Below are positions 7,305 through 28,982 of a DNA stretch of 36,603 nt, in pieces. Within the stretch, counting starts at the first letter, position 1. Each line of letters begins with the position of its first letter. The DNA comes from an uncultured Mycobacteriales bacterium (GTDB lineage: Bacteria; Actinomycetota; Actinomycetes; Mycobacteriales; CADCTP01), in assembly GCA_902805565.1 (NCBI GenBank), contig CADCTP010000275.1, forward strand, positions 1 through 36,603, read 5' to 3'. Below the pieces are notes generated by a model, which was not told the DNA's origin, made no database searches, and was given only the letters and a program-made list of their open reading frames with translations. Made by a program: the position numbers and the translations under genes.

Positions 7305-7362
7305 TGTCTAGCGGACGGGTGGGACGGAACGCGCCGGCGGCCGGCCCGAGTACTCTCGTCGG

Positions 7363-7788
7363 GTGGACTCCGGGACGACCTCGCTGCGGGTGCAGCACGC
7401 CGAGCAGTCGCTGGGCGGGCTGCGGCCGCTGGAGGCGTTCGCCCCCAAGGTGCTGTACGCGGTGGACGGCGTGACCACCGACCCGGCCGTGACGACCGAC
7501 CCGGAGGGCATCGCCGCCGCCGCCCGGGCCGCGGTCGCCGCCGGGGACGGGCACGTGCTGGACGAGACCGCGGTGGTCTTCCCCAACGGCGCGGTGACGC
7601 TGGTGCTGGTGCTGGCCGAGTCGCACCTGTCGGTGCACACCTGGCCGGAGGAGGACCTGGTCGCGGTGGACCTGTTCAGCTGCGGCGCCATCGACGGCGA
7701 GCTGGTCACCGGGGAGCTGGTCCGCAGCCTGGGCCTGACCGACCTGCGCGTGCAGCGTCTGGACCGCGGGTCGGCCCGCCGCCGGTGA
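7363..7788 (+). CDS. speH: S-adenosylmethionine decarboxylase proenzyme
   Basis: ESHLSVHTWPEEDLVAVDLFSCG, the conserved AdoMetDC processing region; GTG start. Confidence 0.88.
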   Translation: MDSGTTSLRVQHAEQSLGGLRPLEAFAPKVLYAVDGVTTDPAVTTDPEGIAAAARAAVAAGDGHVLDETAVVFPNGAVTLVLVLAESHLSVHTWPEEDLVAVDLFSCGAIDGELVTGELVRSLGLTDLRVQRLDRGSARRR

Positions 7789-8978
7789 GCCCGCCCGATC
7801 CGGGCCCGGCCGTGGCCGGTCCCGCCCTGCTCGACCCGGACGCCGTCGCGGCCGAGGTGGCCGCCGCCGTCGGCCTGGCGGAGGGACCCTCCGGCGTCCG
7901 GGCCGTGCTCCGGGAGATCGCCCGCGGCGCCGGCTCGACCCGGGCCGTCGGCCGCGCGGCCGGGCTGCCGCTGCCGGTCGTCGCCGCCGTGCAGGGCGAG
8001 CTGCGCACCCGCGGCGTGCTCACCGCCGAGCGCCCGTCGAAGCTGACCGCGGCCGGGCGGGCGGCGTTCGACCCGGGGGTGACGCTGTCCGGCCGCTGCC
8101 CGGCCTGCGCCGGCCTCGGCGTGCTGGACACCGCCGCCGCCGACCTGACCGCCGCGCTGGCCGGCCCGGCCGCCGACGTCCCACCGGTCCGGGTCGAGCT
8201 GGACCAGACCCACTGCACCCCGGCGACCAAGACCCGCCGGGTGCTGGCCATGCACGACGCCGGCGCGCTGGCCGGCCGGCACGTGCTGGTGCTCGGCGAC
8301 GACGACCTGGTGTCGCTGGCGCTGGTGCACTTCGCCCGGCTGCACGGCACCGGGCCGGCCTCGCTGACCGTCGTGGAGCTGGACCCGGCGCTGGTCGGCT
8401 TCCTGCGGGACCGGCTGGCCGACGCCCCGTTCCCGGTGGAGGTGGTCGAGCACGACCTGGCCGACCCGCTGCCGGCGCGGCTGCTGGGGACCGCGGACAC
8501 CGTGCAGACCGACCCGCCGTACACGGTGGCCGGCGCGCAGCTGTTCCTCACCCGGGCCGCGAGCGCGCTGCGGGCGGGTGCCGGCGGCGAGGTGTTCCTG
8601 TCCCTCGGGGTGCGCCGGCCGGCCGAGACGGTCGCGCTGCAGCAGGTGCTGACCCGGCTCGGGCTGGCCGTCCGGTCGATGCTGCCCGGCTTCAACGACT
8701 ACGTCGGCGCCGGCGTGCTCGGCGGCACCAGCGCGCTGTGGCACCTGGTCGCGGCCGGCGCGGCCCCGGCCGCCGAGCCGGACGGCGACGACGCCCTCTA
8801 CTCCGGCGAGGGCCGCAACCGCCGCCGGTACGTCTGCGCCCACTGCGGCACCGCCCAGACCGTCGGCGTGGGCCGCCGCTGGCGGACCGTCGGCGAGCTC
8901 AAGGAGGCCGGCTGCCCGCGCTGCGGCGGCCGCACCTTCCGCCCCCGCACCACGACGAGGACCCCCCGTGCCGACTGA
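7785..8978 (+). CDS. bpsA: N4-bis(aminopropyl)spermidine synthase (BpsA)-like branched-chain polyamine synthase
   Basis: GTGA overlap with upstream stop; VLGDDDLVSLALVHF and TDPPYTVAGAQLFLTRAASAL motifs; N-terminal wHTH-like region; C-terminal CxxC zinc ribbon (YVCAHCG...GCPRCGGRTF). Confidence 0.8.
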   Translation: MSPPDPGPAVAGPALLDPDAVAAEVAAAVGLAEGPSGVRAVLREIARGAGSTRAVGRAAGLPLPVVAAVQGELRTRGVLTAERPSKLTAAGRAAFDPGVTLSGRCPACAGLGVLDTAAADLTAALAGPAADVPPVRVELDQTHCTPATKTRRVLAMHDAGALAGRHVLVLGDDDLVSLALVHFARLHGTGPASLTVVELDPALVGFLRDRLADAPFPVEVVEHDLADPLPARLLGTADTVQTDPPYTVAGAQLFLTRAASALRAGAGGEVFLSLGVRRPAETVALQQVLTRLGLAVRSMLPGFNDYVGAGVLGGTSALWHLVAAGAAPAAEPDGDDALYSGEGRNRRRYVCAHCGTAQTVGVGRRWRTVGELKEAGCPRCGGRTFRPRTTTRTPRAD

Positions 8979-9420
8979 CCCGGTCCGGCCGGCCACCGAG
9001 GCCGACCTGGACACCCTGATCGCGTACGAGATCGAGATCGCCCGGATCTCCTTCGGCGACGAGGCGGTCACCGACCCGGAGCTGCACCGCAAGCGGGTGT
9101 CCGGCTCGCTGGGGAAGAAGGACGAGGTGACGCTGGTCGCCGAGCGGGACGGCGCGGTGGTCGGCTGGGTCTGGCTGTCCGGCCGGACGAACTCCCTCAC
9201 CGGCGACCGGTACGGCAACCTGCGCTCCCTGGCCACCAGCGACGTCCCCGGCCGGTCCGCGGTCGCCGAGCTGCTGCTCGACGCCGCGCTGGCGGCGGCG
9301 AAGGACCGCGGCGTGACCGAGGTGGTCGGCAAGGTCCACATGCGCAACGTGAACATGCGCGCGGTGTACGCGAAGCTCGGCTTCGCCGCCGAGCACCTGT
9401 CCATGCGGAAGGCCCTGTGA
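8968..9420 (+). CDS. GNAT family N-acetyltransferase
   Basis: VRPATEADLDTLIAYEIEIARISFGDEAVTDPE...NVNMRAVYAKLGFAAEHLSMRKAL; GTG start overlapping upstream CDS by 11 bp. Confidence 0.78.
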   Translation: MPTDPVRPATEADLDTLIAYEIEIARISFGDEAVTDPELHRKRVSGSLGKKDEVTLVAERDGAVVGWVWLSGRTNSLTGDRYGNLRSLATSDVPGRSAVAELLLDAALAAAKDRGVTEVVGKVHMRNVNMRAVYAKLGFAAEHLSMRKAL

Positions 9421-10427
9421 GCGGTCCGGCGCCCCGGCTGGTCAAGGTGGTGGTCTGGGACCTGGACGGCACGCTGTGGCCGGGCGTGGCGCTGGAGTCC
9501 GCCGCGCCGCCGGTGGCCGCGGCCGGGGCGGTGCGGGCCCTGGACGTCCTGGCCGGGCGGGGGATCCTGCTCAGCGTGGCCAGCCGCAACCCGGCCGAGG
9601 TCGGCACCCTGGTCGAGTCGCTGTTCGGCGACCGCTTCGTCGTCCCGCAGTACGGCTGGGGCCGCAAGGTCGACGCCCTGCGCCGGATCGCCGACGCCCT
9701 GGACGTACGGCTGGACGCGGTGGCGTTCGTCGACGACGACCCGATGGAGCGGGCCGACGTCGAGCGGACCCTGCCCGAGGTGGTCGTGCTGGCGCCGGAG
9801 GAGGTCCCGGAGGCGCTGGACTGGCCGGAGTTCGACCCGGGGCCGGTGACCGCGGCCGCCCGGGGCCGGCTGGACAGCTACCGGCAGCGGGCGGCCCGGC
9901 GGGCGGCCCGGGCCGGGTTCGCCGGGTCCGAAGAGGACTTCCTGCGGTGGTGCGACCTGCGGGCGACCGTCCGCGCGGCGGTGCCGGCGGACGCCGACCG
10001 GCTGGCCGAGCTGGCCCGGCGGACCACGCAGTACAACTCCACCGGCGCGGCGCTGCCCGACGGGACCCGGGTGGTGCTGGAGCTGGCCGACCGGTTCGGC
10101 GACGACGGGCTGGTCGGGGTGGCCGCGGTGCCGGCCGCGGCCGGCCCGGAGTGGCGGGTCGAGCTGGTCGCGGTGTCCTGCCGGGCCGGTGGCCGCGGCG
10201 CCGTGCCGGTGCTGCTGGCCGGCACCGGCCGGCTCGCCGCCACCCGCGGCGCACGGCGGCTGCTCGTCCCGTGCCGGCTCACCGAGCGCAACGTGCCGGT
10301 CCGGCTCGGCCTGCGCGCGGCCGGGTTCGCCGCCGCGTCCCGGGACGGCGACACCGCGGTGTTCGCCCGCGACCTGGACCCGGCGCCGGCGTACCCGGAG
10401 TGGGTCACCGTGCGGGAGGACCTGTGA
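9417..10427 (+). CDS. HAD-IIIC family / FkbH-like protein
   Basis: VVWDLDGTLWPGVALE (HAD DxDGT), VASRNPAEV, AVAFVDDDPMERADV, and a C-terminal extension (LARRTTQYNSTGAALPDG...DRFGDDGLVGVAAV) typical of FkbH-like proteins. Confidence 0.83.
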   Translation: MSGPAPRLVKVVVWDLDGTLWPGVALESAAPPVAAAGAVRALDVLAGRGILLSVASRNPAEVGTLVESLFGDRFVVPQYGWGRKVDALRRIADALDVRLDAVAFVDDDPMERADVERTLPEVVVLAPEEVPEALDWPEFDPGPVTAAARGRLDSYRQRAARRAARAGFAGSEEDFLRWCDLRATVRAAVPADADRLAELARRTTQYNSTGAALPDGTRVVLELADRFGDDGLVGVAAVPAAAGPEWRVELVAVSCRAGGRGAVPVLLAGTGRLAATRGARRLLVPCRLTERNVPVRLGLRAAGFAAASRDGDTAVFARDLDPAPAYPEWVTVREDL

Positions 10428-10690
10428 GCGTGCCGGAGATCCTCGCCCGGGTGCTGGGCGACCCAGCCGCGGCGGCGCTGCCGGCCGGCACCCCGCTGCT
10501 GTCCGGCGGCCTCGGCCTGGACTCGGTGACCGTGGTCCGGCTGCTGGCCGAGGTCCGCGCGGAGTCCGGGGTGGACGTGGCCGACCTGGACCTGGACCTG
10601 GACGCGCTGGCCACCATCGCCAGCCTGACCGCCTTCGTCGAGGCGCACCGGGGAACAGCCCGACCGGACCGGGGGTTGGGCCGGTCGTGA
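10424..10690 (+). CDS. Free-standing acyl carrier protein
   Basis: 88 aa; GTG in GTGA overlap; LLSGGLGLDSVTVVRLLAEV phosphopantetheine site with Ser codon at 10523-10525. Confidence 0.82.
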   Translation: MSVPEILARVLGDPAAAALPAGTPLLSGGLGLDSVTVVRLLAEVRAESGVDVADLDLDLDALATIASLTAFVEAHRGTARPDRGLGRS

Positions 10691-11322
10691 GAATCGGCAT
10701 CGTCGGCGCCGGCAACATCGGCGGCACGCTCGCGACCCTGTTCACCCGTTCCGGCCACGAGGTGGCCCTGGCCAACTCGCGGGACCCGCGGACGCTGGCC
10801 GGCCAGGTCGCCGCGCTCGGCCCGCGGGCGCACGCCGCCACCGCCGCCGAGGCCGCCGCGTTCGGCGAGGTCGTGGTGCTCGCCATCCCGCTGGGGGCGT
10901 ACGCGGACCTGCCGCCGGAGCCGTTCGCCGGCCGGATCGTCGTGGACGCCAACAATTACTACCCCGCGCGGGACGGCCGGATCGCCGAGCTGGACTCCGG
11001 CGCCCTGACCTCGACCGGGCTGCTGGCCCGGCACCTGCCCGACGCCCGGGTGACCAAGGCGTTCAACACCATCCACTGGGAGCACCTGCGCGACCTCGGC
11101 CGCCCGGACGCCCCGGCCGCCGACCGCCGGGCCATCCCGATCGCCGGCGACGACGCCGCGGCGAAGGCCGTGCTGACCGACCTGATCGACCAGATCGGCT
11201 TCACCGCGGTGGACACCGGCCTGCTGGTGGACAGCTGGCGCCAGCAGCCGGACACCCCGGTGTACGGCGCCGAGGTCTCCGCCGACCAGGCCACCGTCCT
11301 GATCGCCCAGGCCCGCCGCTGA
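10687..11322 (+). CDS. F420-dependent NADP reductase-like dinucleotide-binding protein
   Basis: VRIGIVGAGNIGGTLATLFTRSGHEVALANSRDPRTL and VTKAFNTIHWEHL; GTG start in GTGA overlap. Confidence 0.82.
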   Translation: MRIGIVGAGNIGGTLATLFTRSGHEVALANSRDPRTLAGQVAALGPRAHAATAAEAAAFGEVVVLAIPLGAYADLPPEPFAGRIVVDANNYYPARDGRIAELDSGALTSTGLLARHLPDARVTKAFNTIHWEHLRDLGRPDAPAADRRAIPIAGDDAAAKAVLTDLIDQIGFTAVDTGLLVDSWRQQPDTPVYGAEVSADQATVLIAQARR

Positions 11323-11367: not shown

Positions 11368-13134
11368 TCAGCTCGTGCTCGACGTTGGCGCCGGCAGGAA
11401 GTGGGCGGCCCGTCCCTTCCCGGGCCCCCGCACCAGCAGGTCGCCCTGGCTCGCGAGGTCGGACAGGACCTTGGAGACGTAGGGCTGGTGCATGCCGGTC
11501 AGGCCGGCGACGTCCCCGGACGTCACTCGCGGGTGATCGGCGAGCCAGACCTGTGCCACTCGGCGCACCGTCGCGGCTCCGCTGGCCCGGAACCACAGGA
11601 GCTCACCGGCAGCGGGTACCGGACCGTACCGTCCCGCCGCCGCGTCCCGTGCGGTCGAGGCTTCCAACCGCCACGTCCCGGCGACGTGCACGAACAGCGA
11701 CCGGCCCTCGACGTGGCACTCCTCGATCGCGGCCAGGGCGACGGTGGCCGCGTCCCGACCGGACTGGAGGACCCGGCCGACCTGGTCCAGGGTGAGGAAG
11801 GGTTGCCGGAGAAGGGCGTCGAGGAGGACGGCGACGCGTACGTCGCGTCGGCGCGGCGCCGGTTCGATCGCGGCGAGCAGGTGCGCGAGTACCGGCAGCA
11901 GTGGCCGTCCCGCCAGCGTGGTGCGGACGCGTGGCCCCGCGACCTCCTCCAGGAGTGGCGGCCGGTGGCCCTCGGCGAGCATCGTCTGGTACATCCGCGG
12001 GACGCCCACCCCCTGTCGGTCCACCAGTCGGAGCGCCCGGAAGAGGTCGGCCAGCGCCGGATACCTCGAGTGGCGCGTCGACAGGGCGTTCGACGGGGTC
12101 ACGCCTCCGGTGAAGCCGCCGGGGCTGGTCACCTCCAGCAGGTCGTCCGCCTCCACCCACCGTACGGCCGTCGGCTCGGGTTGGAACCAGTCGCGGTGGG
12201 TCAGCCCGTTGAGGATCGCCTCCCGCACGGCCCGGGGTGGCAGCAAGCGCTGCCCGCTCTCCACGAACCCCCGGCTGGACGGCCGTACGCCGTTGACGGC
12301 GTCGAGTCGGTCCTCCACCGCCTGCAGCGCCTCGATGAGGCTGGTCCCCGCCGGCTGGGTGTAGCGCAATGTCACGTCCCCGCCCACCACGTCCAGCCGG
12401 GACAGCTCGACGAGCGGCACCGACGACGGGCAGAGCAGCAGTACGCCGGCCTGACTCAGCCGGCCGTCGGGCCGCAGGACGCCGAGCCGGGTGAGTAGCT
12501 CGGTGTTGCCGGACTCGGCCGCATCGAGGTCCCCACCGGCGCGGAGGTAGTCGCGGGTCACCGCCAGGGCGCGCGTCGAGATGTCCGCCGCCCCCCGCTC
12601 CGTCGTCGCGGCCATGGGGTCCAGGCCGATCCGGGCGGCGCGATGGCTCCACCATTCGGCCCGGTCCACGGTCCGGCACTGGTCCCCGACCCGCCAGCGA
12701 AGGCGGTGATCAGGGTCCTCCACCGGCTCCGGGCTCTCGCTCACCAGCAGGATGAGGATCCTGATGCCGCGGAGGTGCCGCTCTTCGATGACGGGAGCGA
12801 TCCCGGTCAGGTCGTCCAGACGCTGTCGCAGCCACTCGGTGTTGAGCTGGGTGCCCAGCGGACCCAACGTCTTGTCGTCGACCCCGAGCACGATGACCCC
12901 ACCGCCAGGGGTGTTGGAGAAGCACCGGACCTCGCCCGCGAGGTGCTCGGCCGCCGTCGGGTTGGTCGCGGTCCCCGGCTGCAGGGTCCCATCCCGCCCG
13001 CGCCGGCCGGCCTCCTCCTTGAGGTCGACCTTCTCGCTCTCCACACCCGATGCCGGGCCGGCCGACAGTGCGACCAGCACCCGATCGGCCTCCGCGCGGA
13101 GTCGCGCCCTGGCCTCGACCGGGTCCGGAATCAT
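11368..13134 (-). CDS. AlbA_2/Schlafen-like putative DNA-binding ATP-binding protein
   Basis: ESEKVDLKEEAGR...EHLAGEVRCFSNTPGGGVIVLGVDDKT (AlbA_2) and RAVREAILNGLTHRDW...LLEVTSPGGFTGGVTPSNALSTRHSRYPALADLFRALRLVDRQGVGVPRM (HATPase-like C-domain); C-terminal wHTH-like segment. Real start near MIPDP; the upstream ORF extension is another gene's antisense. Confidence 0.8.
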   Translation of the reverse strand: MIPDPVEARARLRAEADRVLVALSAGPASGVESEKVDLKEEAGRRGRDGTLQPGTATNPTAAEHLAGEVRCFSNTPGGGVIVLGVDDKTLGPLGTQLNTEWLRQRLDDLTGIAPVIEERHLRGIRILILLVSESPEPVEDPDHRLRWRVGDQCRTVDRAEWWSHRAARIGLDPMAATTERGAADISTRALAVTRDYLRAGGDLDAAESGNTELLTRLGVLRPDGRLSQAGVLLLCPSSVPLVELSRLDVVGGDVTLRYTQPAGTSLIEALQAVEDRLDAVNGVRPSSRGFVESGQRLLPPRAVREAILNGLTHRDWFQPEPTAVRWVEADDLLEVTSPGGFTGGVTPSNALSTRHSRYPALADLFRALRLVDRQGVGVPRMYQTMLAEGHRPPLLEEVAGPRVRTTLAGRPLLPVLAHLLAAIEPAPRRRDVRVAVLLDALLRQPFLTLDQVGRVLQSGRDAATVALAAIEECHVEGRSLFVHVAGTWRLEASTARDAAAGRYGPVPAAGELLWFRASGAATVRRVAQVWLADHPRVTSGDVAGLTGMHQPYVSKVLSDLASQGDLLVRGPGKGRAAHFLPAPTSSTS

Positions 13135-13164
13135 GTGAGTCACCGCAGCCGCCCGACATTCTCG

Positions 13165-13189
13165 TAAGATTAGAAGCTGCCTAATCTTA
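13165..13189. promoter_or_regulatory. Inverted repeat TAAGATTAG-N7-CTAATCTTA, candidate operator or terminator
   Basis: Perfect 9-bp arms; AT-rich in a GC-rich context; centred about 45 bp upstream of the AlbA_2-like start and spanning the stop codon of the upstream CDS. Confidence 0.55.
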
Positions 13190-13979
13190 TACTCTCGATC
13201 TTGACCCCGTCGCCGGCCCGTACGCCGAGCAGCGCCGCCGCGTCGCCCCGGTTGACGGCCACCGCGAGCAGGCCCGCGCTGTCGGCGATCACCACCGGCT
13301 CGCCGGCCGGCACGTCGGCGAAGGTCCGCCCGGTCCGGGCCGCCAGCGCGGTGTCCCCGGCCACCACCCGGACCGCGCCGGACAGCCCGGCCGCGGCGAG
13401 GTCGGCCGCGGTCGCGGCCAGCTGGACGTTGCCGAAGCCGTCCACCGTGGCCACGGTGGCCCGCAGGACGCCCGGCCCGGTGCGGACGGCCGGCACCGGC
13501 AGCCGCACCAGGTCGGCCACCGGCGGTCCCAGCTCGGCCGGGTCCAGCCCGCGGCACAGCGCGGCCGCGACCGGCGCGAACACGTCCCGGCCGTGGAAGG
13601 TGGCCGACACCACCGGCAGGTGGTGGGCGGGCTCGGTCAGCGCGTACGCCGCGGTGACCCCGCCCAGCGCGTCCGCGGCCGGCGGCAGCAGGCCGTTGTC
13701 CGGCCCGACCAGCACGCCGCGGCCGGTCAGCACGGCGACCCCGCGCCGCTCGGTGCCGACGCCGGGGTCCACCACCGCCAGGTGCACCGACGGCGGCAGC
13801 CACGGCACGGTCTGGGCGAGCACCGCCGCCCCCCGCCGTACGTCCTGCGGCGGGACCTGGTGGGTCACGTCGATCACCGTCACCCCGGGCGCCCGCACCG
13901 CGAGCACCCCCTTGCAGGCGGCCACGAACCCGTCGGCGGTCCCGTAGTCGGTGGTGAACGAGACGTGCCGGTAGCTCAC
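13170..13979 (-). CDS. SAM hydroxide adenosyltransferase / SAM hydrolase (DUF62)
   Basis: [26 protein letters not shown]...[34 protein letters not shown]...[12 protein letters not shown]: classic DUF62 motifs; GTG start. Confidence 0.88.
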
Positions 13980-14269
13980 GCCTGCAGGTGCCTCTCCACC
14001 GAGGCGATCTTCGCCGACATCATGTCGGTCATCCCCTCCCGCAGGTCGGCCTTGAGCACCAGGCTGACCCGGGGCGACTGCGCGGCGACGGCCTCGGTGG
14101 CCGCCTTGACCACCGCCATCACCTCGTCCCACTCGCCCTCCAGCGTGGTGAACATGGCATCGGTCCGGTTGGGCAGCCCGGACTCCCGGACCACCCGGAC
14201 CGCCTCCGCGACCGCCGCCCCCACCGTCTCCCCGGTCCCCACCGGACTCACCGAGAACGCCACCAACAT
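13976..14269 (-). CDS. MTH1187 family thiamine-binding protein
   Basis: [57 protein letters not shown]; its stop overlaps the DUF62 GTG start. Confidence 0.8.
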
Positions 14270-16178: not shown

Positions 16179-17495
16179 ATGAACAGCCGTAAGGCTACGA
16201 GCGCTGTCGTGCTTGGCGGAGGACTGGCGGGGTTGTTCGCAACCCGTGTGCTGGCCGCTGAGTACGACAAGGTCACGCTTGTCGACCGCGACCACGTGAC
16301 CGGACCGAACCTGCTCCGGCGTGGTCTGCCGCAGGGACACCACCTGCACGGCCTGCTCTCGCGGGGTCAGCAGATCACCGAGGAGCATTTCCCGGGAATC
16401 ACCGACCAGATGGTCGCCGACGGCTCGGCGATCGGTGACGCGGCCAATGACGTCCGGTGGATCATCAACGGCAAGCGCCTGGTGCAGACCGACTCCGGAA
16501 TGGTCTGCCTCACCGCGTCGCGACCGTTCTTCGAGTCGCACATCCGCGACCGCGTCCTCGCGCTGCCGAACGTCGTGCTGTCGGAGCAGACCGACATCAG
16601 CCGGCTCGAGGTCGGCGACGACGGCAAGCAGGTCCGCGGTGTCTGGGTGTTCCCGGAGGGCAAGCACGAGACCCTGCTGCCGGCCGATCTCGTGGTCGAC
16701 GCCTCCGGCCGCGGGTCACGCGCCGCGGTGTGGCTCGAGGACCTCGGCTACGGGCGGGTGCCGGAGGAGAAGCACAAGATCGGGATGGGCTACGCCACCC
16801 GGTACTACCGGATCCCGGACGCGGCGTTCGAGGGCAACATCTCCGTCAACACGGTCGCCTCCGCCGGCGTTCCGCGCGGGTGCATCTGCCAGAAGATCGA
16901 CGGTGGCCGGGCCATCGTGACGGCCTACGGCATCCTGGGTGATCACCCGCCGACCGACCCGGAGGGCTACCTGGACTTCATCAAGTCCCTGGCCGCCCCG
17001 GACATCTACGAGATCCTGCAGCAGTCCGAGCCGCTCAACGACCCGGTCGCGTACAAGTTCCCCACCAACCTGCGCCGGCGCTACGAGCTGATGTCCGATT
17101 TCCCGGCCGGGTTCCTGGTGACCGGTGACGCGGTGGCCAGCTTCAACCCCAGCTACGCGCAGGGCATGACGGTCGCCGCGCTCGATTCCATCGTGCTGCG
17201 TGACCACGTCGCCGGCGGCGGCCCGGTCGACCCCCTCGCCTACTTCCGTGACCTCGCGACCAAGGCGATCGACGGGTGCTGGGACATGGCGGTCAGCGCG
17301 GACCTGGCCTTCCCCGGGGTGGAGGGGGAGCGGACCGCGGAAACCTTGGAGACGCAGGAGTTCATCGCCAAGACGCAGGACGCCGCCAGCCGGGACGCCG
17401 AGGTCTCCAGGGCGTTCCAGCGGGTCATCGGTCTCGCCGACCACTACACCGTGCTGCACCAGCCGCACCTCGAAGCCAAGATCCTGGCGAGCTGA
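16179..17495 (+). CDS. FAD-dependent epoxidase/monooxygenase
   Basis: AVVLGGGLAGLFATRVLAAEYDKVTLVDRD (GxGxxG), GLPQGHHLHGLLSRG, FLVTGDAVASFNPSYAQGMTVAALDS; family resembling polyketide FAD epoxidases. Confidence 0.85.
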   Translation: MNSRKATSAVVLGGGLAGLFATRVLAAEYDKVTLVDRDHVTGPNLLRRGLPQGHHLHGLLSRGQQITEEHFPGITDQMVADGSAIGDAANDVRWIINGKRLVQTDSGMVCLTASRPFFESHIRDRVLALPNVVLSEQTDISRLEVGDDGKQVRGVWVFPEGKHETLLPADLVVDASGRGSRAAVWLEDLGYGRVPEEKHKIGMGYATRYYRIPDAAFEGNISVNTVASAGVPRGCICQKIDGGRAIVTAYGILGDHPPTDPEGYLDFIKSLAAPDIYEILQQSEPLNDPVAYKFPTNLRRRYELMSDFPAGFLVTGDAVASFNPSYAQGMTVAALDSIVLRDHVAGGGPVDPLAYFRDLATKAIDGCWDMAVSADLAFPGVEGERTAETLETQEFIAKTQDAASRDAEVSRAFQRVIGLADHYTVLHQPHLEAKILAS

Positions 17496-17501
17496 GCCGC
17501 G

Positions 17502-18362
17502 ATGACACTTCGACGGATCCCCCTCGGTGACCTCACCTTCGACGTGGACGTCGACGGTCCGGCGGACGGCCCTGCCGTCCTGCTGCTGCACGGCTTCCCG
17601 CACAGTCGGGAGTCGTGGGTGGACGTCGCGCCGATCCTGAACGACGCCGGCCTCCGCACGATCGCTCCCGACCAGCGCGGGTACTCCGACGGTGCCCGGC
17701 CCACCGACGTCGCCGACTACGCACTGCCGCTGCTCGCGGGCGATGCGCTCGGAATTCTCGACGCGCTCGGCGTCGAGTCCGCGCACGTCGCGGGGCACGA
17801 CTGGGGCGCGGCGGTCGCGTGGTACCTGGGTGCCCGGCACAAGGACCGGGTGCGCAGCCTCGTCGCGCTGGCGATCCCGCACCTGGACGCGTACCAGCAC
17901 GCCTTCCGCGTCGACGAGGAGCAGCAGCACGGCTCCCAGTACGTCGAGATGCTCATGTCCAGCGGCTCGGCCCAGGAGTTCCTGGCCGACGACTCGGCGC
18001 AGCTGCGGGCCTGGTTCTTGCAGGCCGGCGAGGGCGTGCTGACGCCCGGGCAGGTGGAGCGGTACGTCCACAAGCACTCGCAGCCCGGCGTCCTGGACGC
18101 CGCGCTCAACTGGTACCGGGCGAACAACCTGCTCGGCGAGCCGTTCGAGTTCGGCACCGTGTCGGTGCCGACCACGTTCGTCTGGAGCCCGAGCGACTTC
18201 GCGGTCAGCAAGCTCTCGGTCGCCGAGACCGCGGGGCACGTGACCGGCCCGTACCGGCTGGCCACGTTGCCGGAGACGTCGCACTGGCAGCCGCAGCAGG
18301 CACCCGAGGCGGTCGCCGCCGAGATCCTGCGGCTCGCCACTGCCGAACAGGAGGCCCGATGA
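17502..18362 (+). CDS. Alpha/beta hydrolase, epoxide hydrolase-like
   Basis: LLLHGFPHSRESW, DQRGYSDG, AGHDWGAAVAWYL (Asp nucleophile context GHDWG), SHWQPQQAP. Confidence 0.85.
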   Translation: MTLRRIPLGDLTFDVDVDGPADGPAVLLLHGFPHSRESWVDVAPILNDAGLRTIAPDQRGYSDGARPTDVADYALPLLAGDALGILDALGVESAHVAGHDWGAAVAWYLGARHKDRVRSLVALAIPHLDAYQHAFRVDEEQQHGSQYVEMLMSSGSAQEFLADDSAQLRAWFLQAGEGVLTPGQVERYVHKHSQPGVLDAALNWYRANNLLGEPFEFGTVSVPTTFVWSPSDFAVSKLSVAETAGHVTGPYRLATLPETSHWQPQQAPEAVAAEILRLATAEQEAR

Positions 18363-19894
18363 CCGCGACGGCAACTGAGGAACTCGCCGAACCGTACCTC
18401 CGCGGGGTGCTGGCCAGCGCGGGACTGGACGTGGAGTACGTCCGGGGCGACGGCGACACGCTCTACTACCGCAGAGGCACCGAGGACGTCCCGGTGCTGG
18501 ACTTCGTCGGCGGCTACGGATCGACGCTGCTCGGTCACAGCCACCCGGAGCTCATCGCGTACGCCCGGGAGCTGCTCGCCGCGCAGACGCCGATCCACGC
18601 GCAGTTCTCGCGCCATCCGTACGCCAACGAGGTCGCGGCCAAGCTCAACCGGATCATCAAGCGGGAGACCGGCTCCGACGAGTCCTACTTCGCGATCTTC
18701 GCCAACAGCGGTGCCGAGGCGATCGAGGCCGCGATGAAGCACGCGGAGTTCGAGCGCTACATCCGGGTCGAGACGCTGCGCGCCGAGATCGGGGCCAGCA
18801 TCGAGGCGGCGCGGACCGCTGTGGCGGACGGCACCGTCGCCGCCGGCGAGGCGGACGCGCTCCTCGCGGACGTGACCGCGCACAACGACGCGGTGTTCGC
18901 CGGCACGCCACCGCTGTTCCTCACCCCGGTGGGGTCGTTCCACGGCAAGCTCGCCGGCAGCACGCAGCTCACCCACAACCCGGTCTACCGGGCGGTGTTC
19001 TCGGCACTCGCCGCGCAGGCGCGGTTCGTGCCGGTCGACGAGCCTGGCGCGGTGGACGACGTCGTGCGATCCGAACGCCGGTGGCTGCACGACGTGGCGA
19101 TCGACGGCGACCGGATCACGGTCGTGCAGCGGCCCTTCCCGCGGTTCTGCGCAGTGGTGCTGGAACCGATCCTGGGCGAGGGCGGCATCCACGAGATGCC
19201 GGAGCCGTTCGTCCGCGACCTGCAGCGGGTGGCCGCCGAGCTGGAGATCCCGGTCGTCGTGGACGAGATCCAGAGCGGGATGGGGCGCACCGGCGCGTTC
19301 CTGGCGAGCACCCACCTCGGCCTGCGGGGCGACTACTACGCCCTGGCCAAGAGCCTGGGCGGCGGGATCGCGAAGGTGGCCGTGATGCTGGTGCGGGCCT
19401 CGCGCTACAAGAGCGACTTCGAGATGATGCACAGCTCGACGTTCGCCAAGGACAGCTTCTCGTGCCTGATCGCGGCCAAGGTGCTGGACCTGCTGGAAGC
19501 GGACGACGGCGAGGTCTACCGCACCGCCGAGTCGCGCGGAGCGGAACTGCTGACCGCGCTGCAGGGACTGATGAAGGAATTCCCGGACGTCGTCAAGGAC
19601 GTGCGCGGGCGCGGGCTGATGGCCGGCCTCGAGTTCGTCGAGCAGAGTGACGCGCGCTCCGGCACGTTGCGGGAACTCCACGGATCCGGGTTCTTCGGCT
19701 ACTACGTCTCCGGGTTCCTGCTGCGCGAGCACGGCATTCGCACGTTCCCGACCTCGAGCGCGGTGTACACCCTGCGGTTCGAGCCGTCCGCGAACATCGG
19801 CACCGCCGAGATCGGGAAGCTCACCGAGGCACTGCGCGACGTGTGCAGCCAGATCCGGGACACCGACGGCGAGCGGCTGGCGCCGATCGGCTGA
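18359..19894 (+). CDS. Class III (PLP) aminotransferase
   Basis: FANSGAEAIEAAMKHAE, VVVDEIQSGMGRTGAFLA, ALAKSLGGGIAKVAVMLV (PLP lysine); ATGA overlap with upstream gene. Confidence 0.9.
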   Translation: MTATATEELAEPYLRGVLASAGLDVEYVRGDGDTLYYRRGTEDVPVLDFVGGYGSTLLGHSHPELIAYARELLAAQTPIHAQFSRHPYANEVAAKLNRIIKRETGSDESYFAIFANSGAEAIEAAMKHAEFERYIRVETLRAEIGASIEAARTAVADGTVAAGEADALLADVTAHNDAVFAGTPPLFLTPVGSFHGKLAGSTQLTHNPVYRAVFSALAAQARFVPVDEPGAVDDVVRSERRWLHDVAIDGDRITVVQRPFPRFCAVVLEPILGEGGIHEMPEPFVRDLQRVAAELEIPVVVDEIQSGMGRTGAFLASTHLGLRGDYYALAKSLGGGIAKVAVMLVRASRYKSDFEMMHSSTFAKDSFSCLIAAKVLDLLEADDGEVYRTAESRGAELLTALQGLMKEFPDVVKDVRGRGLMAGLEFVEQSDARSGTLRELHGSGFFGYYVSGFLLREHGIRTFPTSSAVYTLRFEPSANIGTAEIGKLTEALRDVCSQIRDTDGERLAPIG

Positions 19895-19941
19895 GCTCGG
19901 CGAGCGGCACATTCGACGCAATCATCACAGGCGAGGATCAC

Positions 19942-21453
19942 ATGCAGAGCTCTTCCGTCGCGGTCGTCAAGCCCGGCGACGAACGGTACGCACCCCTGAC
20001 CGCGAGCTTCAACGGCAGGTGGGGGGCCGGCACGCCCGACTACGTCCTGCTGCCCGTCACGGCGGACGAGGCCGTCGAAGCGGTCCAGCACGTGGTCGAC
20101 AACGGGGACCGGTTCGCGATCCACAGCAGCGGCGCGTGCTACGAGGACCTGCTCACCAACCGTGGTGTCAGGGCGGTCGTCAGCACCTCGCAGCTGACGT
20201 CGGTCGAGTTCGACCCGCAGCGGTCCGCGTTCGCCGTCGGGGCGGGCATCTCGACCGTGGAGCTGTACCGGAAGCTGTACGAGGGCTGGCAGGTGACGGT
20301 CCCCGCGGGTGCGGGACCGCCGGTGGCGCTGGCCGGGCAGATGGTCAACGCCGGGTACGGTCCGCTGTCCAGGCAGCTCGGTCAGCTCGTCGACTACCTG
20401 GAGGCGGTCGAGGTGGTCGTCGTCGACAACGACGGCCGCGCGCGCAAGGTCGTCGCCAGCCGGCGCGCCGACGACGAGAACCGCGATCTCTGGTGGGCCC
20501 ACACCGGCGGCGGCGGCGGCACGTTCGGGCTGGTGACGACGTTCTGGCTGCGCTCGCCGGGCGCCGAGGGCGACGATCCGGCCGCGCAGCTGCCCGCCGC
20601 GCCGCAGGAACTGATCCTCTCGCAGGTCGCGTGGTCGTGGGACGCGATGACCGAGGAGGCGTTCAGCCGCCTGCTGAAGAACTTCAGCTCGTGGCACGCG
20701 GACAACAGCGCCCCCGACTCGCCGTCGGTCAACATCTTCAGTGCGCTCAAGCCGCGGCACGTCTCGGCGGGGGAGTTCCTGATGTCGACCGAGCTCGACG
20801 CCGGGACGCCGGGCGCCGAGCGGCTGCTCGACGAGTTCCTCGCCGCGGTCAACGAGGGCACCGGCCTGACCTACCGGCAGGAGCGCACGACGGTCGGCTG
20901 GCTGGAGCACGTGACCAGCTGGATAGGTCTCGGCGGGGACGGCTGGGAGGGCAAGGGTCGTTTCAAGGCGAAGTCGGCGTACCTGCGCACCGCCTTCACC
21001 GACGAGCAGCTGCGGGCGATGTACCGCCACCTGTCCGACCCGGGCTTCGACAACCCGGCGACCATGGTGGAGATCGGCGGGTACGGCGGGGCCGTCAACG
21101 CGGTCGGGGAGCAGGCGACGGCCACCCCGCAGCGGGACTCGGCCATGCGGCTGCTCTACCTCACGATGTGGGCGGACGAGGCCGACGACGCGGTGCACCT
21201 GGCGTGGCTGCGCCGCTGGTACGCCGACGTCTACGCATCGACGGGGGGCGTGCCGGATCTCCGCGGCACCGGCGACGGCGCGATCGTCAACTACATCGAC
21301 GCCGACCTGCTCGACGAGACGCTGAACACCTCGGGTGTCGCCTGGCACGAGCTGTACTTCGGCAGCGCGTACCCGAAGCTGCAGCAGATCAAGGCGACGT
21401 GGGACCCGCGGGACGCGTTCACGCACGCGCTCGCCGTACGTCGACCGGACTGA
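19942..21453 (+). CDS. BBE-like FAD-linked oxidoreductase, probably lacking covalent FAD attachment
   Basis: PCMH-type FAD domain and BBE C-terminus (WHELYFGSAYPKLQQIKATWDPRDAFTHALAVR); expected His and Cys anchors replaced (SSGACYED, AGAGPPVALAG). Confidence 0.85.
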   Translation: MQSSSVAVVKPGDERYAPLTASFNGRWGAGTPDYVLLPVTADEAVEAVQHVVDNGDRFAIHSSGACYEDLLTNRGVRAVVSTSQLTSVEFDPQRSAFAVGAGISTVELYRKLYEGWQVTVPAGAGPPVALAGQMVNAGYGPLSRQLGQLVDYLEAVEVVVVDNDGRARKVVASRRADDENRDLWWAHTGGGGGTFGLVTTFWLRSPGAEGDDPAAQLPAAPQELILSQVAWSWDAMTEEAFSRLLKNFSSWHADNSAPDSPSVNIFSALKPRHVSAGEFLMSTELDAGTPGAERLLDEFLAAVNEGTGLTYRQERTTVGWLEHVTSWIGLGGDGWEGKGRFKAKSAYLRTAFTDEQLRAMYRHLSDPGFDNPATMVEIGGYGGAVNAVGEQATATPQRDSAMRLLYLTMWADEADDAVHLAWLRRWYADVYASTGGVPDLRGTGDGAIVNYIDADLLDETLNTSGVAWHELYFGSAYPKLQQIKATWDPRDAFTHALAVRRPD

Positions 21454-21487
21454 CCCCTCCAGACATCCGCCCCTGAAAGGAGTCCCG

Positions 21488-22015
21488 TTGTCCATCGCAC
21501 AGCATCTCGACTACCTCGGCGAGACCTACGGCAAGGCGCGAGCCCAGCTCGGCGGGTCCCTGCCGGCCGAGCTCGACGGCTTCATGACCCGCTGGTTCGC
21601 GGCGGTGAACAACCAGGACATCGACGCGCAGCTCGCGATGTGCGCCGAGGACGTCCACGTCGAGGACCCGGCGATGCAGGGCCGTTTCACCGACGGCCAC
21701 GACGAGTTCCGCCGCTTCGCCGAGATCACCTACACCGCCTTCCCGGACATGCACTTCACCGAGATCGGCGCGCCGTACATCGCGCTGGACGGCAACAGCC
21801 TCTCGGTGCGGTGGCGCGGCACCGGCACCCTCACCGGCCACATCCAGGGCTGGCCGCCGGAGAACCCGGGCCCCCGGATCGAGGCCACCGGCAAGAAGTT
21901 CGACCTCGAGGGCTACGACATCTACCAGTTCTCCGGGGGAAAGATCTCCACCTGGTTGATCGGCTACGACAACCTGCAGATGTCGGCGCAGCTCGGGCTG
22001 CTGCCGGCGGGGTGA
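21488..22015 (+). CDS. SnoaL-like / NTF2-fold polyketide cyclase-type protein
   Basis: TTG start after GAAAGGAG; MTRWFAAVNNQDIDAQLAMCAEDVHVEDPAMQGRFTDGHDEFRRFAEITYTAFPDMHFTEIG. Confidence 0.8.
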   Translation: MSIAQHLDYLGETYGKARAQLGGSLPAELDGFMTRWFAAVNNQDIDAQLAMCAEDVHVEDPAMQGRFTDGHDEFRRFAEITYTAFPDMHFTEIGAPYIALDGNSLSVRWRGTGTLTGHIQGWPPENPGPRIEATGKKFDLEGYDIYQFSGGKISTWLIGYDNLQMSAQLGLLPAG

Positions 22016-22030
22016 GCGGGACGGAGCCGG

Positions 22031-22065
22031 CGAGGGCCGGGCTCGCTCCGCGGGCCCGGCCCTCG
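22031..22065. terminator. Bidirectional hairpin terminator
   Basis: CGAGGGCCGGG-N13-CCCGGCCCTCG perfect 11-bp stem between convergent genes ending at 22015 and 22071. Confidence 0.75.
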
Positions 22066-22070
22066 CGGCG

Positions 22071-22496
22071 TCAGCGCCGCAGCGCCTTGTGCAGCAGCGC
22101 CGCGAACTGCTTGCGTTCGGCGACGGTGAGGTTCGACGCGGCCGCCCTCGGGAACTCGAAGGACTCCTCGAACTCGCCGTACAGGTCGTCGCCGCTCGGC
22201 GTGCGCACGATCTGCCGGGAGCGCCTGTCCTCCGGGTTGGGCTCGCGGTGGACCAGCTCGCGGGCCTCGAGGCGGGCGACGATCTGGGTGATGTTGGAGG
22301 CGTCGCAGCGCAGTTCCTCGGCCAGCTCCCCCATGCTGCGGCGGGTCTCGACCCGTCCGAGCACGCAGGCGTGGGCCGTGCTCAGCCCGTGCTCGCTCGC
22401 CGCGGCCTCCCACGCCTGGTTGTAGGCGTCGACGAACTCGAACATCGCCTGCTCGACGTCGGTCGCGCCGCTCGCGGGTACGGCGGGCACTGCCAT
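22071..22496 (-). CDS. MarR family transcriptional regulator
   Basis: AHACVLGRVETRRSMGELAEELRCDASNITQIVARLEARELVHREPNPEDRRSRQIVRTPSGDDLY: MarR wHTH with wing DxRxR. Confidence 0.88.
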   Translation of the reverse strand: MAVPAVPASGATDVEQAMFEFVDAYNQAWEAAASEHGLSTAHACVLGRVETRRSMGELAEELRCDASNITQIVARLEARELVHREPNPEDRRSRQIVRTPSGDDLYGEFEESFEFPRAAASNLTVAERKQFAALLHKALRR

Positions 22497-22547
22497 GGAT
22501 CGATCGTAAGCCATGCACAGGGGAGCCACCACGACTCCGAGCAGGTG

Positions 22548-22586
22548 CTTGATTCGCTCAAGGGAACATGTCAGGATTCCCCTGAG
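22548..22586. promoter_or_regulatory. Candidate MarR operator(s) between divergent marR and ene-reductase genes
   Basis: CTTGA-TTCGC-TCAAG (22548-22562) and overlapping CTCAAGGGA-N12-TCCCCTGAG (22557-22586, 8/9 arms). Confidence 0.5.
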
Positions 22587-22639
22587 CTAATCACGCATTT
22601 TGCGCGTACAGGCACGTCCAGCGTTCGTGAGGAGAAGTC

Positions 22640-23722
22640 GTGAGCACCCTGTTCGATCCGGTGACAGTTGGCGCGCTGCAGTTGCCGTCCCGCCTGGTGA
22701 TGGCCCCGATGACGCGGAACAGGGCGACCCTGGAGGGGGTCGTCACCCCGACCACCGCCGAATATTACGCCCAGCGCGCCAGCGCCGGCCTGATCGTTTC
22801 CGAGAGCATCCAGCCGAGCGTGCTCGGCCAGGGCTACATCCTGACCCCCGGCCTGCACAGTGCCGAGCAGGTGGCCGCCTGGCGCACCGTCACCGAGGCG
22901 GTGCACGCCAAGGGCGGCCGCATCGTGGCCCAGCTCACCCACTGCGGCCGGATCGGGCACCCGTCGCTGTACCCGGACGGCGAGCTGCCCATCGCGCCGT
23001 CCCCGGTGGCCTCCGGTGAGCAGATGATCAGCTTCCAGGGCCCGCTGGACCACCCGACGCCGCGGGAGATGACCGCCGAGGACATCCGCACCGTCATCGA
23101 GGAGTTCGCGCAGAGCGCGCGCAACGCCATCGAGGCCGGCTTCGACGGGGTCGAGGTGCACGGCGGGAACGGCTTCCTGGTCCACCAGTTCCTCGCCGAC
23201 AACACCAACCTGCGCACCGACGAGTACGGCGGCTCCGTCGCGAACCGCATCCGCTTCGTCGTCGAGGTCGTGCGCGCGGTCGCCGACGTCGTCGGCGCCG
23301 ACCGCGTCGGCATCCGGGTGTCGCCGGGCAGCCCGTACAACAGCATGGTCGAGTCGGACCCGCTGTCGGTCTACACCCCGCTGCTGAACGAGCTCGCGGG
23401 GCTCGGCATCGCCTATGTGCACGTGATCGAGATGGGCACGCGCGATCTGACCAAGCAGCTGCGGGCCGTGTGGCCCGGCACGCTCATCCTCAACCCGCAC
23501 GAGACCATGGCGGTCTACCCGGCCACCGCCGAGGCGGCGGAGCAGGCCATGGAGGCCGGTATCGCGGACGCGGTGTCCCTGGCGGCGCTGTGGCTGGCCA
23601 ACCCCGACCTCGACGCGCGCATCAAGGCCGGCGGTCCGTTCAACACGCCGGACCAGGCGACGTTCTACGGCGGCGACCACGTCGGCTACACCGACTACCC
23701 GACCTTGGAGAACGCCAAGTAG
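22640..23722 (+). CDS. Old Yellow Enzyme-family NADH:flavin oxidoreductase / ene-reductase
   Basis: LFDPVTVGALQLPSRLVMAPMTRNRA, AQLTHCGRIGHPSLYPDG, FDGVEVHGGNGFLVHQFLADNTNLRTDEYGGS. Confidence 0.92.
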   Translation: MSTLFDPVTVGALQLPSRLVMAPMTRNRATLEGVVTPTTAEYYAQRASAGLIVSESIQPSVLGQGYILTPGLHSAEQVAAWRTVTEAVHAKGGRIVAQLTHCGRIGHPSLYPDGELPIAPSPVASGEQMISFQGPLDHPTPREMTAEDIRTVIEEFAQSARNAIEAGFDGVEVHGGNGFLVHQFLADNTNLRTDEYGGSVANRIRFVVEVVRAVADVVGADRVGIRVSPGSPYNSMVESDPLSVYTPLLNELAGLGIAYVHVIEMGTRDLTKQLRAVWPGTLILNPHETMAVYPATAEAAEQAMEAGIADAVSLAALWLANPDLDARIKAGGPFNTPDQATFYGGDHVGYTDYPTLENAK

Positions 23723-23762
23723 GTCGAGCACGGGAGTCGGCCGCACGTCGTGCGGGATACGC

Positions 23763-23804
23763 CGAGGCTTGTCCAGGATGCGTCAGCGTCCTGGACAAGC
23801 CTCG
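23763..23804. terminator. Perfect 16-bp stem hairpin
   Basis: CGAGGCTTGTCCAGGA-tgcgtcagcg-TCCTGGACAAGCCTCG, 41 bp after the ene-reductase stop. Confidence 0.75.
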
Positions 23805-23892
23805 GTCGTGCGCGAGGAACGGGCTTGTCCGAGTGATCGAGCAGGAGGTCCAGGGTCATGGACGGACCACGTACGAGAGGGCACCGGTCGAC

Positions 23893-25389
23893 GTGCTGAG
23901 TGGAGCGGTGGTCCGAGAAGGCGATGCCCGCTACCGGGGACTGACGAGCGGCGCGAACACCCGTTGGGTCGGGGCTCCGGAGTACGTGCGACTCGTCTCG
24001 TCCGCGGCCGAGGTCGTGGAGGCCGTGCAGGAAGCCGTCGACCGGGGCCTGAAGATCACGGTCCGCAGCGGCGGTCACTGCGACGAGGACTTCACCACCT
24101 CCGACGACATCCAGGTGGTGCTCAACCTCGCCGGTCTGGACGCGGTCTACTACGACGAGGAACGCCGTGCGTTCGCCGTCGAGCCGGGGGCGTCACTGGG
24201 ACGCGTCTACGAGACGCTGTACCGCGGTTGGGGGGTCACCATCCCCGGCGGGACGTGCCCCACGGTCGGCGCCGGCGGGCACATCGTCGGCGGCGGTTAC
24301 GGCGCGCTCTCCCGGATGTACGGACTCACCGTGGACTACCTCCATGCGGTCGAGGTCGTCGTCGTCGACGAGAGCGGGCGGTGCAGCACGGTCGTGGCCA
24401 CCCGCGAACCGGACGATCCACATCGTGAACTGTGGTGGGCGCACACCGGCGCCGGCGGCGGCAACTTCGGCGTGATCACCAAGTACTGGCTGCGCGCTCC
24501 GGACGCCGGCTCGGCGGAACCGGCCGATCAGCTGCCCACTCCGCCCGCGGAGCTTCTCGTGTCCGACGTCGCATGGTCGTGGGACGATCTCACCGAGGAG
24601 AGCTTCTCCCGCCTGGTCCGCAACTTCAGCGAGTGGCACGAGGCCAACTCCGCTCCGGACTCCCCCGGCACGGGCCTCTACAGCCAGCTCAAGACGCAGC
24701 ACCGGGCTGCGGGGATGTTCCGGATGAGCACGCAGGTCGACGCGAGTGCGCCCGATGCGCAGGGATACCTCGACCGGTTCCTCGCGGCGGTCAACGAGGG
24801 CACCGGCGTCGACTACACGGTGAACGACCGCAGCGTCCTGCCGTGGTTCTACGTCGTCCGGGAGTGGTTCGGGTTCGTCGAGGGGTCGCTGCCCCGCTGG
24901 AAGGCGAAGTCCGCGTACATGCGGAAGGCGATGCCGGCGGACCAACTCGCCGCCCTCTACCGGCAGCTGACGCGGGACGACTACGACAACCCGTTCTCGA
25001 TGGTCGCACTGGTGTCCTTCGGTGGCCGGATCAACGCGGTCGAGCCGGCGGCGACGGCGGTCGCCCAGCGCGACTCGGTGCTGAAGCTGCTGTACGTGAC
25101 GCTGTGGACCGACGGGTCGGAGGACGATCGCCACGACCGGTGGATCCGGGAGTGCTACGCGGACGTCTACGCCTCGTCCGGCGGCGTGCCCCGGTCCAAC
25201 GACGTCACGGACGGCTGCTTCATCAACTACGCCGACGCCGACGTCGCCGACCCGGCGTTGAACGGCTCCGGCGTCCCGTGGCACGAGCTGTACTTCAAGG
25301 ACAACTACGCCCGCCTCCAGGCAGTCAAGAAGCAGTGGGATCCGCGTGGCGAGTTCGGCCACGCGTTGTCCGTCCGCCCGTCCGCCTGA
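23893..25389 (+). CDS. BBE-like FAD-linked oxidoreductase, canonical bicovalent type
   Basis: TVRSGGHCDEDF (His anchor) and IPGGTCPTVGAGGHIVGGGYG (Cys anchor); BBE C-terminus WHELYFKDNYARLQAVKKQWDPRGEFGHALSVRP. Start uncertain: GTG 23893 or 23833. Confidence 0.88.
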   Translation: MLSGAVVREGDARYRGLTSGANTRWVGAPEYVRLVSSAAEVVEAVQEAVDRGLKITVRSGGHCDEDFTTSDDIQVVLNLAGLDAVYYDEERRAFAVEPGASLGRVYETLYRGWGVTIPGGTCPTVGAGGHIVGGGYGALSRMYGLTVDYLHAVEVVVVDESGRCSTVVATREPDDPHRELWWAHTGAGGGNFGVITKYWLRAPDAGSAEPADQLPTPPAELLVSDVAWSWDDLTEESFSRLVRNFSEWHEANSAPDSPGTGLYSQLKTQHRAAGMFRMSTQVDASAPDAQGYLDRFLAAVNEGTGVDYTVNDRSVLPWFYVVREWFGFVEGSLPRWKAKSAYMRKAMPADQLAALYRQLTRDDYDNPFSMVALVSFGGRINAVEPAATAVAQRDSVLKLLYVTLWTDGSEDDRHDRWIRECYADVYASSGGVPRSNDVTDGCFINYADADVADPALNGSGVPWHELYFKDNYARLQAVKKQWDPRGEFGHALSVRPSA

Positions 25390-25413
25390 CCGAACCCACC
25401 GAGGACCGATCAC

Positions 25414-26238
25414 ATGACCCGAACCGTCTTCGTCACCGGAGCCCGCGGCAAGACCGGCCGCGAAGTGGTGGCCCAGCTCGTCGAACGCGGTGACACCGAG
25501 GTCCGCGGCGGGTCCTCGCGGAGCCCGCAGGCGCCGACGACGGTCCCCTTCGACTGGCGGGACCAGGCGACCTGGTCGAAGGCGGTGGACGGGGCGGATG
25601 CGATCTACCTCGGACGCCCCGACGTCCAGGACTCGCCCGAGCTGGTCAGGCAGCTCATCGCCGCCGCACCGGACGCGCACATCGTCCTCGTCTCCGAGCA
25701 GGGCGCGGAGCGGGTCGCGGCCGACGGCTGGGTGCAGCGGGTCGAAGCCGCCGTCACCGGCACCGCGAGCCGCTGGACGATCCTCCGCCCGTCGTGGTTC
25801 CAGCAGGTGCTGACCGATCCCCGCTACTTCCTCGACGCGATCCGCACCGAGCGGGTGATCAGCCTGGCCACCGACGGTGCGCCGATCGCCTGGGTGGACA
25901 CCCGGGACATCGCGGCCGTCGCCGTGCGGGCGATCGCGGACCCTGCCACCCACCACGGCAAGGCCTACACCGTGACCGGCCCGGAGGCGGTCACCACCGC
26001 CGACATCGCGGCGGACATCTCCGCCGCGATCGGCGCCGAGGTCACGGCCGTGGTCCCGCCGCTGTCGGAGGCCCTCGCCGGAGCCCCGCCGTGGCTGGCC
26101 GACGTCGTCGGCGGCATGTTCGGCCGGGTGCACGACGGGACGTTCGCCATGGTCGACGACACCGTCGAGAGGGTCACGGGGACGCCGCCGCGCACGATCA
26201 AGCAGTTCATCGCCGAGCACGCCGACCAGTGGCGCTGA
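25414..26238 (+). CDS. NmrA-like NAD(P)-binding SDR
   Basis: MTRTVFVTGARGKTGREVVAQLVERG...ASRWTILRPSWFQQVL...YTVTGPEAVTTADIA. Confidence 0.85.
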   Translation: MTRTVFVTGARGKTGREVVAQLVERGDTEVRGGSSRSPQAPTTVPFDWRDQATWSKAVDGADAIYLGRPDVQDSPELVRQLIAAAPDAHIVLVSEQGAERVAADGWVQRVEAAVTGTASRWTILRPSWFQQVLTDPRYFLDAIRTERVISLATDGAPIAWVDTRDIAAVAVRAIADPATHHGKAYTVTGPEAVTTADIAADISAAIGAEVTAVVPPLSEALAGAPPWLADVVGGMFGRVHDGTFAMVDDTVERVTGTPPRTIKQFIAEHADQWR

Positions 26239-26281
26239 GCACCACCCCGACGGACTCGGTCGACACACGCAGATCGGACTC

Positions 26282-28799: not shown

Positions 28800-28816
28800 G
28801 CCGGGTCCGTTGCGGT

Positions 28817-28850
28817 GACCCGGTGCGGGCTCCGGCCGGGATCCCGGGTC
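28817..28850. terminator. Possible hairpin terminator between NCS1 and PKS genes
   Basis: GACCCGG...CCGGGTC 7-bp arms within a GC-rich palindromic stretch. Confidence 0.35.
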
Positions 28851-28982
28851 CCGTCCCGGTGTCGTGGCCGCCGCACCGGGGCCCGAACCCGCCCGCACGA
28901 CGACCAAGGGAATGCCGGACTCATCGGTCCGCCATCGCCCGCCCATCGGGTCGGCATTTCCTCTCCAATAAGGAATTACCGA

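Follow-up and report, generated by a model that had tools for sequence, protein, structure and literature searches.

The DNA analysed here (the window) is a 36,603-nt stretch of contig CADCTP010000275.1, from the draft genome (460 contigs) of an uncultured Mycobacteriales bacterium. Six overlapping open reading frames (ORFs) on the + strand fill positions 7363-11322 and form an operon with a polyamine-type half and an FkbH/acyl carrier protein (ACP) half. The ORFs were checked against the sequence, and both their positions and their Pfam and NCBIfam matches agree with the genes, families and coordinates given in the initial annotation.

The first gene (AMD, 7363-7788) encodes a class 1b homologue of S-adenosylmethionine (AdoMet) decarboxylase (PF02675, 78 bits against a cut-off of 25). 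Aligned to T. maritima AdoMet decarboxylase (1tlu), its key residues are the pyruvoyl Ser87, His92, Trp94, Glu96 and Cys107. It is followed by a BpsA-like aminopropyltransferase gene (BPS, 7785-8978; BpsA_C, PF01861, 112 bits, cut-off 27) with GDDD at residues 171-174, TDPPYT at 242-247 and a C-terminal CxxC...CxxC tail at 351-380. A GNAT acyltransferase (8968-9420; Acetyltransf_1, 40 bits) comes next, and then an FkbH-like HAD-IIIC protein (9417-10427; TIGR01686, 154 bits, cut-off 146.65) whose DxDGT and SCRxxGRG motifs are intact. The stand-alone ACP (10424-10690; PP-binding, PF00550, 33 bits, cut-off 21) has its attachment Ser in GLDSV. The last frame (10687-11322) is a translationally coupled F420/NADP-type Rossmann reductase (F420_oxidored, PF03807, 67 bits), which lies outside the conserved core. 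Direct reading of the sequence recovered the overlaps described earlier, namely GTGA at 7785, 9417, 10424 and 10687 and an 11-bp overlap at 8968-8978.

Third-position GC is 0.94-0.99 in each of the six genes, and differences between the window and its sister genome (L033, same genus) fall mostly at the third codon position. The + strand frames are therefore coding, and a 1215-aa antisense ORF at 7308-10955 is a GC artefact. The same codon-position evidence, together with synteny across families, rules out chance neighbours or mis-called ORFs. A promoter-like TACTCT-N6-GTG pattern can be read at 7351-7365 (+), and the stretch GAGTACYCTCGTCGGGTGGAC is kept in the sister genome. From this pattern, the operon transcript is probably leaderless and would begin at the GTG start codon of AMD, with TACTCT six bases ahead. 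No plasmid match was found.

Conservation of the cassette across actinobacteria

We searched for BPS in 299 genomes from the same order and 395 from the class, in a sample of the phylum, 296 genomes of the genus g93, the order of G372 and the class of G778, and added the named Allokutzneria locus L045. Within these sampled genomes, 17 loci (the window and 16 others) carry the same BPS subfamily. Three strong matches were found in the order. The class search was bimodal, with six matches at E <= 1e-92 and the next ones at E >= 1e-37.

AMD is present at 17/17 loci, GNAT at 16/17, and intact FkbH and ACP at 15/17 each. A phosphopantetheinyl transferase (PPTase) gene joins the cassette at 11 of the 17 (identified by Pfam for sampled copies). 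The loci are distributed over four actinobacterial families, plus the lineage G778, which has AMD and BPS only. Gene order is repeated in other families at about 40-45% protein identity. At 12 loci (all those of g93, and G372) BPS and GNAT are one open frame; the copies read have Ala/Pro-rich linkers and are free of internal stops. The AMD gene is divergently oriented in g93, and in G372 it lies at the far end in convergent orientation; the cassette has thus been reshuffled yet retained. In G1161 the FkbH gene is decayed (truncated, with catalytic residues lost) and ACP and PPTase are missing; AMD and an intact BPS-GNAT stay (L134:10900-12900). This is the joint loss of one functional half, that of FkbH, ACP and PPTase.

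The presence of the cassette is rare and patchy, with 9/296 genomes of g93 carrying it. Because the 11 g93 loci are related, independent support amounts to four to five lineages, not 17. As a side observation, nine g93 genomes (L077, L078, L079, L128-L133) have a chaplin-like gene and a tyrosinase gene on the flanks of the cassette; these may be functionally linked to it or just mark its insertion site, and on this gene content g93 may be Streptomyces.

The reductase was found only in the window and L033, and in no other lineage. We considered it as a core pathway enzyme, substituting for FkbK. Its absence outside the window's genus rules this out, and of the six genes in the initial annotation the reductase is therefore not part of the core.

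The polyamine and FkbH/ACP halves had been suggested to belong together, and their conserved linkage over the 17 loci bears this out: within this BPS subfamily, co-occurrence of BpsA/AdoMet decarboxylase genes with HAD/ACP genes is usual, not rare. Given this conservation, the BPS-GNAT fusion and the joint loss in G1161, we are highly confident that the cassette parts act in one pathway.

Motifs of the cassette enzymes

By profile comparison BPS matches Tk-BpsA (5xnc) with E=1.9e-45, and the N-terminal and catalytic domains are homologous. BPS covers PF01861 profile positions 10-194 of 243, whereas a typical BpsA-like protein (L107) covers 2-241. Common to BPS and BpsA (N4-bis(aminopropyl)spermidine synthase, EC 2.5.1.128; PDB 5xnc, 6j27) is the GDDD motif, which is essential for positioning decarboxylated AdoMet (dcSAM) (PMC12979288) and is present in 17/17 loci. 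Where Thermococcus BpsA has TDPPET, the BPS loci have TDPPYT (IDPPYT in G778). The two also differ at the C-terminus. In characterised BpsA, an acidic cluster at the C-terminus stores the aminopropyl group (PMC12979288). That cluster is absent from the BPS subfamily, in which a CxxC...CxxC tail takes its place (ending FRPRTTTRTPRAD in the window), with four Cys as two CxxC pairs in 17/17 loci, followed by the fused GNAT in 12. Without the acidic tail, BPS would therefore relay the group via other residues or transfer it directly. The branched-polyamine product proposed in the initial annotation is unsupported, both for want of the carrier tail and with DPPY in place of DPPE. The predicted structure of BPS was too poor for use (predicted local distance difference test score, pLDDT, 52.5). 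The two proteins are also found in different organisms: a 2026 review confines bpsA orthologues to thermophiles (PMC12979288), whereas BPS occurs in actinobacteria.

Actinobacteria also have common PF01861 proteins of ~500-550 aa (L035, L036, L081, L082; ~50 genomes of the order) that, where read, lack GDDD and the CxxC pairs. The PF01861 name therefore probably overstates their function, and they may be methyltransferase-like. We set the ~550-aa proteins aside as informative homologues, as they have neither GDDD nor the cassette.

Among the operon AMDs, the class 1b motif Ser, His, Trp and Glu are invariant, as are Phe73, His92 and Glu96 in the active-site motifs. The window copy has both the pyruvoyl Ser motif and the catalytic Cys (ESHLSVHTWPE...DLFSCG), and AMD and BPS are each single-copy in the window genome. 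The pairing of an AdoMet-decarboxylase homologue with an aminopropyltransferase is shared with SpeD/SpeE spermidine biosynthesis. However, SpeE belongs to PF01564 and BPS to PF01861, and ACP, FkbH and GNAT have no place in the SpeD/SpeE pathway. Both members of the genus have a gene for SAM hydroxide adenosyltransferase close to the operon (window 13170-14132, - strand, PF01887, 167 bits; L033 7023-8195, + strand), possibly tied to AdoMet or dcSAM balance.

The HAD Asp motif and the Cys motif of FkbH are invariant in the nine operon copies aligned, and the core residues are common to methoxymalonyl-type paralogues. The attachment Ser is invariant in 15/15 ACPs. The FkbH/ACP cassettes of polyketide synthase (PKS) clusters (FkbGHIJK; tetronate mad7/mad8) likewise combine an FkbH-like protein with a stand-alone ACP and share the DxD and SCR motifs, but the methoxymalonyl/tetronate companions, the FabH-like enzyme and the PKS are not in this cassette. 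Genes for O-methyltransferase, acyl-CoA dehydrogenase and 3-hydroxyacyl dehydrogenase were found neither in the window operon nor conserved at the other loci. The same genome has a methoxymalonyl-type, FkbGHIJK-like set elsewhere (L117:2240-8095; G000 contig C394), with O-methyltransferase, FkbH, acyl-CoA dehydrogenase, 3-hydroxyacyl dehydrogenase and ACP genes; the operon FkbH is 36% identical to the FkbH of that set. An ordinary methoxymalonyl or tetronate cassette is ruled out by the absent companions and by this second set. The earlier view that the operon is not ordinary PKS/nonribosomal peptide synthetase (NRPS) machinery holds.

FkbH proteins of this family make glyceryl-ACP (e.g., PMC7489565). 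The cassette conserves no enzyme that would oxidise or methylate such a unit, which makes glycerate the likeliest ACP cargo. The proposal that FkbH loads a three-carbon unit on the ACP is consistent with the intact motifs; glycerate as that unit is predicted from a divergent FkbH.

The canonical GNAT pyrophosphate loop for coenzyme A (CoA), (Q/R)xxGx(G/A) (PMC12273574), is lost in 16/16 GNAT copies, including that of the window, with PGRSAVA, PERTEVA, DNRSDVA and similar sequences in its place. The GNAT model (pLDDT 86.8) has as its best Foldseek match the polyamine acetyltransferase DpA, which was solved also with 1,3-diaminopropane. No LuxI or FeeM match was found for GNAT, and its nearest folds are small-amine acetyltransferases. 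Both LuxI-type N-acyl-homoserine lactone synthases and FeeM-type N-acyl amino acid synthases have a GNAT fold that takes acyl-ACP, and LuxI uses an AdoMet-derived amine. They share with the proposed role of the cassette GNAT the logic only, that of a GNAT fold acting on acyl-ACP. PMC4234381 served as a reference for this comparison.

A proposed route and its alternatives

We propose a carrier-protein-dependent pathway to an acylated, aminopropylated amine. By homology, AMD would decarboxylate AdoMet to dcSAM, and BPS, with its conserved GDDD donor site, would move the aminopropyl group of dcSAM onto an amine acceptor. The PPTase, encoded in the cassette at 11 loci, would activate the ACP. FkbH, given its intact motifs, would load its Cys with a three-carbon acid, for which D-glycerate supplied by 1,3-bisphosphoglycerate is the likeliest candidate; it would then strip the phosphate and hand the acyl group to the ACP, a step predicted here for a divergent copy. 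GNAT would finally form an amide by moving the ACP-bound acyl group onto the aminopropylated amine. As BPS is fused to GNAT, aminopropylation and acylation are likely to follow each other, with either one first; that order, and the chemistry overall, we infer. We give this specific mechanism, read from sequence, close to an even chance.

The fuller version of this proposal is more tentative, and we hold it as a possibility somewhat short of even: AdoMet and a glycolytic intermediate would be the starting materials of a new class of specialised-metabolite pathway, whose fused enzyme, an aminopropyltransferase with an ACP-dependent GNAT, builds from them an aminopropyl compound bearing an N-glyceroyl (or related C3-acyl) group. 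In one variant, GNAT might acylate dcSAM first, in a LuxI-like manner, and BPS might then transfer the acylated aminopropyl group.

Several observations weigh against the proposed route. The catalytic Cys of AMD is kept in the window's genus and G372, and Tyr stands there in 14/17 loci. The operon FkbHs score 146-202 bits on TIGR01686, against 339 for the genome's own methoxymalonyl-type FkbH, so their cargo may differ. DpA is ahead of the next GNAT matches by a narrow margin only. G778 carries AMD and BPS, but nothing in its genome matches FkbH; the AMD-BPS pair therefore has some function by itself and may be the older unit. The window has no adjacent PPTase, and its ACP is presumably activated by one encoded elsewhere in the genome.

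The first of these points bears on the best-surviving alternative, that AMD is a neofunctionalised pyruvoyl-dependent ornithine or arginine decarboxylase supplying an amine for acylation, and that BPS uses dcSAM from elsewhere or does not aminopropylate. SpeD homologues have repeatedly turned into such decarboxylases, and a second AMD copy in a genome is a flag for finding them (PMC10407285). G110 raises this flag, since it encodes an ODC-like/SpeD/SpeE set apart from the operon, which makes the operon AMD of G110 a second copy, and a divergent one. On the AdoMet decarboxylase equivalog TIGR03330, the L045 copy (sister of the G110 operon AMD) scores 71 bits, against 118 for the canonical enzyme of G110. 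The window AMD scores 72 with a cut-off of 75.65, and other operon copies 71, 74 and 81. However, the window AMD is the sole copy in its genome, retains the Cys and adjoins an aminopropyltransferase-family gene needing dcSAM, and the active-site Phe73, His92 and Glu96 are invariant. We regard a changed AMD as unlikely. AMD is likely an AdoMet decarboxylase on these motifs, but the label is not secure because SpeD homologues have changed function so often. The original assignment stands as to family and is probable, not certain, as to function, as most operon homologues have Tyr at the catalytic Cys position.

A somewhat weaker alternative concerns GNAT, which could N-acetylate a polyamine with acetyl-CoA while FkbH and ACP produce a glyceryl or other unit on their own, to be joined at a later stage or put to use elsewhere. 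The closest fold, an acetyl-CoA polyamine acetyltransferase, and the Pfam Acetyltransf_1 match both favour this division of labour. It fits poorly with the loss of the CoA pyrophosphate loop in every GNAT copy, and the cassette conserves no other acyl-accepting enzyme to use the ACP. We judge it rather unlikely, slightly more so than a neofunctionalised AMD.

It is less probable again that the substrate of BPS-GNAT is not a small amine but a macromolecule, be it RNA, a protein or the ACP itself. The winged-helix-like N-terminus, the zinc-knuckle-like CxxC motifs and the DPPY motif of BPS would suit such a substrate; enzymes whose targets are the amino groups of planar bases typically have DPPY. 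However, polyamines are the substrates of BpsA relatives that share the GDDD donor site, and the rare, patchy presence in g93 is unlike that of a housekeeping RNA modification. This makes a macromolecular substrate improbable.

The last alternative, that two independent activities merely share one operon, would accommodate the AMD-BPS pair of G778 without FkbH/ACP, but it was already disfavoured and is very improbable given that the set is kept through rearrangement in four families, that BPS is fused to GNAT and that FkbH, ACP and PPTase were lost jointly.

Surroundings and meaning of the cassette

Downstream of the operon, a gene for a Schlafen AlbA_2/DUF5635 protein (11368-13803, - strand) lies between it and the SAM hydroxide adenosyltransferase gene, which is not so in the sister genome. 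A run of redox and tailoring genes follows at 16179-27211. It includes a flavin adenine dinucleotide (FAD) oxidoreductase, an alpha/beta hydrolase, a class III aminotransferase, two BBE-like oxidases, an old yellow enzyme, and NmrA-like and zinc dehydrogenases, and resembles a specialised-metabolism cluster in its own right. The contig ends inside a large type I PKS open frame (28815-36603) that lies about 17 kb away from the operon. No link between this PKS frame and the operon was found.

No description of a cassette of this kind was found in the open-access literature searched, and the view of the operon as a candidate undescribed pathway stands. The part families are known; the combination is new. 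Without the acidic tail of BpsA and without methoxymalonyl/tetronate companions, the cassette is a clean member of neither of its nearest kinds.

Confirmation of the chemistry would make this a new pathway class. Polyamine chemistry is treated as distinct from carrier-protein chemistry, the exception being the condensation of a finished polyamine by an NRPS or PKS. Since the fused protein (about 650 aa), FkbH and ACP are small enough for in vitro reconstitution, the pathway question is directly testable. If true, the cassette would offer a new and compact way of making acylated polyamine-like compounds, with five to six genes and no ketosynthase or adenylation gene adjoining the ACP, and such cassettes may escape the usual PKS/NRPS cluster rules. 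It would also carry BpsA-type enzymes beyond thermophiles, with an altered C-terminus that bears on the mechanism of the aminopropyl relay.

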